A stretch of DNA of 48,321 nt from NCBI GenBank assembly GCA_027028005.1, contig JALVKE010000318.1:1-48321 (forward strand). Direction: 5' to 3'. This DNA comes from Persephonella sp. (GTDB lineage: Bacteria; Aquificota; Aquificia; Aquificales; Hydrogenothermaceae). The notes under the pieces are model-generated. The model was not told the origin of the DNA, ran no database searches, and saw only the letters and a program-made list of their open reading frames with translations. A program made the position numbers and the translations under genes. Within the stretch, counting starts at the first letter, position 1. Each line of letters begins with the position of its first letter. Positions 7,228 through 8,777 of this stretch are shown piece by piece.

Positions 7228-7923
7228 ATGGCTAAAAAAAAGAAAGAGGAATGTCCCAGTGTTCCAGCATGGATAATAAGTTTTAGTGATTTAATGTCCC
7301 TCCTTTTAACATTCTTTATTCTTCTATATTCAATGTCTGTTCTTGATATAAAAAAGCTGATGAAATTTCTGTGGTACTTTCAAGGGGAACAGAAGTTTCA
7401 GGCAATAAAATCTGTACAGGTTATTCCTCCAATATCTCTTATGAGAGAAGATATGGCAAAACTTTTAAGAGAGAGGATAGATAGAATTCTACCTCCTCAT
7501 GCTTTTCAAATTGCTGTTATAGAGGATTATATAATAGTTAGACTGTTTAATGATGTAACTTTTGAAGAGAACTCATCTGAGCTTACTGACAAAGCCCAAA
7601 ATGCTCTTAAAAGTGTAGCAACTGTTTTAAAATCCTTAGATAACTCTTTAGGAGAAATACTTATAGAAGGACATGCAAATAGAGAAGAAAAAAATCCATG
7701 GATCTTATCTGCAAAAAGAGCTTTAAAAGTTGCTGAGTTTCTTATATCTCAAGGAGTAGACCCTAAAAAGATTTCTGTTACTGCCTATGGAAATACAAAA
7801 CCTCTATACACATGGAATCATCCTCTTTTAGTTAGAAGAAATAGCAGAGTGGAGATCAAGATAAAACTTAAACAGATAAGGAAAGATGTTTTAGAGAATA
7901 AAAAAGAAAAAGGTTCTTTTTAG
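7228..7923 (+). CDS. motB2: Second MotB-like stator protein with a divergent OmpA domain
   Basis: This 231-residue paralogue shares the N-terminal layout of the upstream MotB: MAKKKKEEC, then PAWIISFSDLMSLLLTFFILLYSM with Asp21 aligned to the ion-carrying residue. Its C-terminal domain is OmpA-like but altered. The HTDDTP segment reads EGHANREEKN, so the acidic residue that contacts diaminopimelate in OmpA-type domains is missing. The later Arg of SAKRALKVAEF and the RRNSRVEI end remain. From memory, Aquifex aeolicus also has one MotA with more than one MotB, so duplication may be a lineage trait. The role could be an alternative stator, or a mixed one with the first MotB. Confidence 0.88.
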   Translation: MAKKKKEECPSVPAWIISFSDLMSLLLTFFILLYSMSVLDIKKLMKFLWYFQGEQKFQAIKSVQVIPPISLMREDMAKLLRERIDRILPPHAFQIAVIEDYIIVRLFNDVTFEENSSELTDKAQNALKSVATVLKSLDNSLGEILIEGHANREEKNPWILSAKRALKVAEFLISQGVDPKKISVTAYGNTKPLYTWNHPLLVRRNSRVEIKIKLKQIRKDVLENKKEKGSF

Positions 7924-8195
7924 TAAGCCTTTATAGAATACTTAGGAGAAATCTATTTTAACTAAAAAACTTCCTTTTTTCGTTATAGGATGAAAAAAAG
8001 AGCAGTAAAAAAACTATAAGAAGTTTTCAATTAAAGATGAAAATTTTCCATATATAGTAACTAACAGGAGCAACACCTGTTAGGAATAAGGCAACCTTTC
8101 AATAGCATCCCTATTGAGAAGCAATAAATCTAGAATCTGAGCAAGTCTAAGATATAGAAATTTAGTTGGTACGTATTTTATAAAATCTACTAACT
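7924..8195 (+). other. Intergenic region with three hairpins, possible remnant of an IS200/IS605-type right end
   Basis: No gene is visible in these 272 bases between motB2 and gmhA. The first 130 bases are plain AT-rich DNA. From 8061 three hairpins occur in a row. CTAACAGG at 8061-8068 pairs with 8076-8083, TCAATAG at 8099-8105 pairs with 8111-8117, and TCTAGA at about 8129-8134 pairs imperfectly with TCTAAGA near 8146-8152. The second hairpin is followed at once by GAAGCAA and a TAA stop (8118-8127). From memory, a GAAGCAA(T/G)AA tract next to hairpins is common at the end of tnpB genes, where the OMEGA RNA is made. No tnpB body remains. An unrelated structured RNA is also possible. Confidence 0.35.
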
Positions 8196-8777
8196 TTACT
8201 TTTCAATCTCGCCAGTTAAATACATCTCAATAATCTTACATAGAGTATGTTCTAGCGTTAGATGAACCTCCTGAATTCTAGCTGTGCTGCTATGCCTTAC
8301 AATAAATGCTTTATCAACAATATTCTTTAGTTTCCCACCATCCTTTCCTAAAAAACCTACAGTAAAAATCCCCATCTCTTTGGCTTTTTCAACAGCCTTT
8401 ATAACATTCTCAGAGTTTCCACTAGTTGATATGCCAACTAAAATGTCCCCTTTTTCCCCTAGAGCTTCAACCTGTCTTGAAAAGACCTTATCAAACCCAT
8501 AATCATTTCCAATGGCAGTTAAGGCAGAAGTATCTGTTGTTAAAGCTATAGCAGGAAAAGCCCTTCTCTCTTTTTCAAATCTTCCAACAATCTCAGCTGC
8601 AAAATGCTGACTGTCTGCAGCACTACCACCATTTCCACATATTAAAATCTTATATCCAGCTTCTAATCTTTTCCCCATCAGTATTCCAAGGTTAACAATA
8701 GCTTCTGCATACTCTTCAACAAACGCTCTTTTTAAAGAAGCACTTTCATCAAAAACATCCATAACTAAATCAACCAT
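8196..8777 (-). CDS. gmhA: Phosphoheptose isomerase
   Basis: GmhA converts sedoheptulose 7-phosphate to D-glycero-D-manno-heptose 7-phosphate, the first step to the heptose of the lipopolysaccharide core. The 193-residue protein is a single SIS domain with the family-specific loop [16 protein letters not shown] (about residues 47-62), followed by [20 protein letters not shown], the phosphate-binding [11 protein letters not shown], and EVHLTLEH, which holds the catalytic histidine. AGGAGGG lies six bases before the ATG at 8777. The gene stands alone on the minus strand between two plus-strand blocks. It implies a lipopolysaccharide-bearing outer membrane. Confidence 0.96.

Follow-up and report, generated by a model that had tools for sequence, protein, structure and literature searches.

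The locus examined here raises the question of what the cluster of inverted repeats between motB2 and gmhA in a Persephonella genome derives from, and whether it still serves as an RNA. In the window, by which we mean the whole stretch of 48,321 nucleotides that was analysed (contig JALVKE010000318.1), motB2 (7228-7923, + strand) and gmhA (8196-8777, - strand) are convergent, with 272 bases between their stops. This gap contains a perfect 8-bp hairpin (arms 8061-8068 and 8076-8083), a perfect 7-bp hairpin (arms 8099-8105 and 8111-8117) with GAAGCAATAA immediately 3' of it (8118-8127), and, in the predicted fold, an imperfect third hairpin at about 8129-8158 and another that could form at 8164-8195. 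A preliminary description had likened this succession of hairpins, GAAGCAA, a stop and a final hairpin to the 3' end of IS200/IS605 tnpB genes, which encodes the guide RNA, and had proposed that an element was lost from the site and that only its RNA-coding end stayed, perhaps still transcribed.

The hairpins themselves say little. The two perfect ones are present as described, whereas the third is imperfect, and the stability of the segment as a folded RNA is not clearly beyond chance, whether 8040-8195 is considered (z = -1.82; 12 of 200 shuffles equal or better) or 8039-8178 (z = -1.13; 28 of 200). An Rfam scan of the segment, one of the checks that had been suggested, returned no family at cut-off and nothing significant even at permissive thresholds, the top sub-threshold match being HPnc0580 (E = 0.33). 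It is not the hairpins that rise above chance but the homology of the sequence to right ends of tnpB.

When relatives were searched at the DNA level, a congeneric genome (G002) yielded two matches, of 68-69% identity over 110-112 query bases, with E = 4e-6 for the 69% identity over 112 query bases. Both lie close to contig ends and adjoin tnpB remnants, and one of them sits where a broken tnpB reading frame ends. Among tnpB loci gathered with Pfam PF07282, right ends of the G002 type make up one tnpB family found in several genera of Hydrogenothermaceae (Persephonella-like MAGs), with the consensus AGGTGTGGTGACCACCTGTCAGGGATAAGGC..AGCAAACTCCCTGAGAAGCCACCGAC..GTCGGTGCGTAGTTCAC, beyond which the individual ends diverge. 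Aligned locally with the G002 end, the window segment scored 249, whereas six shuffled queries, run against every locus compared at that stage, did not exceed 146; a profile HMM of 13 right ends (nhmmer) had its sole significant match in the window at 8074-8177 (E = 4e-5); and a covariance model of the same 13 ends, from which the window was excluded, placed its best match at 8062-8181 on the + strand (21.3 bits, E = 0.0022), the next one reaching 10 bits. We therefore agree with the preliminary description that the segment originated as the right end of a tnpB-bearing element of IS200/IS605 type, the tnpB of which has been lost. The comparison with tnpB ends that it had called for yielded matches in congeners, so the complete lack of any match, which it regarded as fatal, is not what we observed; no matching right end was found in the same genome, where the tnpB loci belong to other subfamilies. 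Its reading of GAAGCAA followed by a stop was partly right, since GAGAAGC (8116-8122, + strand), which overlaps it, is a motif that the family conserves in the stretch separating its second helix from the terminal hairpin, and partly coincidence, because the "AATAA" occupies the place where the 5' arm of the terminal hairpin was lost.

The right end is not all that stayed. A profile of the tnpB leader and start, built from seven elements of the family, has its best match in the window at 7956-8026 on the + strand (nhmmer, E = 0.0023), and in pairwise comparisons none of 300 dinucleotide shuffles reached the scores obtained with five of the seven elements, those of the other two being reached by one and four shuffles. 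Within this stretch, alignment points to a degenerate tnpB start consisting of an ATG at 7990, nine codons and a stop (7990-8019, + strand). The match is collinear with the right end, lying upstream of it in the right order and on the same strand, and between the two there is no detectable tnpB coding sequence; when the right-end profile was extended upstream into tnpB coding sequence the signal was absent from the window, because the left-hand sequence resembles a tnpB start and not a tnpB end. Since a leader/start remnant is thus also present, the region appears to be an element from the middle of which tnpB was deleted. A tnpA or tnpB gene, by which an IS200/IS605 element is recognised, is represented only by the nine-codon start remnant, and the region is therefore a relic or derivative, an incomplete member of the family. 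It would extend over 7924-8181 (+ strand), filling most of the gap, although its left edge is uncertain because the match on that side covers few bases, rich in A and T, and the left palindrome of the element is not recognisable in the window. A candidate edge is TTTATAGA (7930-7937, + strand), which equals the left boundary octamer of many related elements; the octamer occurs five times on the + strand of the window, so that about 0.03 occurrences would be expected by chance in the intergenic region, and it is weak evidence by itself.

The state of the right end can be judged against the family scaffold, in which a first hairpin is succeeded by a helix (TCAGGG/CCCTGA) that surrounds a second one, with a terminal hairpin and then TTCAC at the end. 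The window copy lacks the terminal hairpin's 5' arm, has TTTAT for the TTCAC tip that is invariant in the family, and carries CGTATTTTAT (8172-8181, + strand) instead of the family right tip CGTAGTTCAC; intact subterminal palindromes together with a TTCAC cleavage tip are thus missing. Ancestral pairing has persisted no more than would be expected under random mutation: 26 of 38 alignable pairs are kept with L072 as reference, compared with 24.6 when the same substitutions are placed at random (P = 0.33); with three other references the outcome was alike (P = 0.12-0.57). Neither of the two clean hairpins (8061-8083 and 8099-8117, + strand), which had been taken for tnpB-end structure, is a conserved helix of the family; both are private to the window copy, and decay alone leaves them unexplained, yet they are not beyond chance. 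A 3' subterminal hairpin is a feature common to nearly all tested TnpB scaffolds (PMC10278001), and its loss here therefore makes loading of the window scaffold into TnpB unlikely. As for partner proteins, the assembly contains no match to a Y1 transposase and no intact TnpB of the subfamily of the window copy, only a stop-containing stretch of 29% identity, an absence that is not firm, given that the source MAG is fragmented, 8% contaminated and possibly lacking repeats.

Nor do relatives preserve the site. None of the other genomes examined has motB2 close to gmhA (in G001, for example, they occupy different contigs), and GmhA is absent from every other motB2 locus searched, those of named Hydrogenothermaceae and of Persephonella MAGs among them. 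A conserved structured RNA at this place in relatives without IS elements, the other outcome that had been named as fatal, was not seen; as a candidate explanation it was ruled out, the two genes never being adjacent in the relatives examined and their loci lacking the element. The only right end around motB2 or gmhA in the scanned loci is the window's own. As far as could be sampled, the motB2-gmhA junction is private to the source genome or its close kin, and no empty site came to light with which the region could be compared. Closer kin of the window copy were sought in 136 genomes of the phylum, yielding only the 69%, tnpB-associated matches of G002, and no other copy among the 136 carries the same deletion.

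We consider it highly probable that the region is a decayed, internally deleted IS200/IS605-type element. An element belonging to a tnpB family that is found widely in Hydrogenothermaceae would have arrived just behind motB2 and, on site or before its arrival, would have lost nearly all of tnpB, so that leader and start remnants, which we could align, became joined to the right end with its omega-RNA scaffold. The remnant would then have been free to mutate, and the terminal hairpin, held by TnpB, and the TTCAC tip, both used in transposition, would have been destroyed. The remaining DNA is probably inert; at most, motB2 transcripts would run through it passively and carry it as their 3' tail. 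A non-functional scar is its most likely status.

Several other explanations may be considered. The relic could have been retained by the host for a function that has nothing to do with TnpB, for instance as a terminator of the motB operon or a stabiliser of its mRNA, the selected feature being the hairpins at 8061-8083 and 8099-8117. That both are perfect and non-ancestral speaks for such a role, but neither is followed by a T-run, the fold is not clearly better than that of shuffles and no orthologous copy was found that would show conservation, and we regard this scenario as very unlikely. Slightly less probable again is an ordinary intergenic structure, a bidirectional terminator or 3'-UTR element of the convergent genes, that resembles tnpB by accident. 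Convergent genes do flank the segment, and 8164-8195 is able to form a hairpin, but accident fits poorly with several homology tests giving E-values from 4e-6 to 2e-3, collinear on both sides. An intrinsic terminator was ruled out as a candidate, none having been found.

The possibility that the scaffold is a live orphan omega-RNA, read through from the motB operon, still folding and served by a TnpB in trans, with a guide beyond 8181 antisense to the 3' end of gmhA, is one to which we give even less credence. Its strand and position fit, no terminator-like site lies between motB2 and the scaffold, and sister genera have scaffolds that are intact yet without tnpB; against this stand the broken terminal hairpin, the retention of pairing at no more than a random rate, the lack of a matching TnpB in the assembly, the failure to find a + strand promoter-like site within the relic and the lack of conservation of the site in relatives. 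The same hairpin damage, random pairing and absence from the assembly of cognate TnpB and TnpA leave without support the idea that a working or selected RNA persists. Least probable of all would be exaptation as a tnpB-free guide RNA, co-transcribed with the flagellar motor operon and directed antisense at the end of gmhA, whose TnpB is missing from the assembly.

The reading as a decayed element also gains from the comparable tnpB-less and decayed copies present in several relatives. Of 41 Hydrogenothermaceae genomes, 22 contain right ends detected by the covariance model. Where the sequence upstream was long enough to judge, tnpB is absent, or reduced to its last 30-odd codons, in more than ten cases; some of the tnpB-less ends are decayed like the window copy (L211, L216), and others are intact and multicopy.

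Among the latter is an element of about 310 bp (L201:1733-2042 in G010:C115; also L297, L307, L284, L285, L298 and L308), of which G010 holds about ten full or contig-cut copies and G022, G017 and G045 hold more, each copy having its own flank. Besides a left palindrome and a long hairpin CATATCCCGTT..AACGGGATATG, it has a promoter-like TTGACA-16-TAAAAT and an intact right-end scaffold that reaches to TTCAC, and it could be a nuclease-free, self-promoted guide-scaffold element. In the genus of the window, a right end at which the contig stops (L178; G001:C181:11170-11257) shares 98% identity with the 310-bp element of G010, another genus, which suggests recent spread between genera. The source genome itself carries two more decayed relatives of this element without tnpB (L225:1688-1850 and sequence upstream, in G000:C194; L300, G000:C47:36644-36749). 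The sequence AAATCTATTGATTTAGGCGACCGAAGGGAGCAA, a hairpin with a linker, is found near right ends of different tnpB subfamilies (L031, L033, L095, L225), sometimes within the first hairpin, and is possibly an exchangeable scaffold module. At L184 (G049:C164) a right end is fused directly to a tnpA-like coding sequence with tnpB missing, which reads like another type of internal deletion in the same family.

The single decayed copy in the window is of little importance, being a further damaged example of a kind already known. What the locus does illustrate is that the origin of an intergenic cluster rich in hairpins can be found in a tnpB right end, in a lineage whose scaffold Rfam missed, and that Hydrogenothermaceae often have ends without tnpB. 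The question whether guide scaffolds can spread independently of their nuclease is better put to the intact, multicopy, promoter-bearing tnpB-less elements of the sister genera.

Among known systems, the omega-RNA scaffold, whose 3' end is marked by the right end of the element and would be followed by the guide (PMC10278001), agrees with the window copy in position and strand, and the window copy is homologous to such ends in relatives. In contrast to such scaffolds, it has no tnpB in cis and has lost the 3' subterminal hairpin, and by the features tested it would not be a functioning omega-RNA. In Halanaerobium hydrogeniformans IS200/IS605 loci occur in all stages of decay, one of them as ends only (PMC7290912); stages from intact element to ends only are likewise seen here within one genome lineage, although the element family and the host phylum are different and tnpA and tnpB are divergent there. 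Closer still are the palindrome-associated transposable elements (PATEs) of Haloquadratum walsbyi, short IS605 derivatives with deleted cores, of which HqIRS71 is an example (PMC3119063). The relic is also short, non-coding and derived from an IS605-type element by deletion of the core, and HqIRS71, too, retains a C-terminal/right-end segment of tnpB (PMC3119063). The window copy differs in being single and decayed; of the near-terminal palindromes that PATEs have at both ends, the right one is broken and the left one not recognisable. The locus may thus be viewed as a PATE-like relic, one that resembles a dead PATE.
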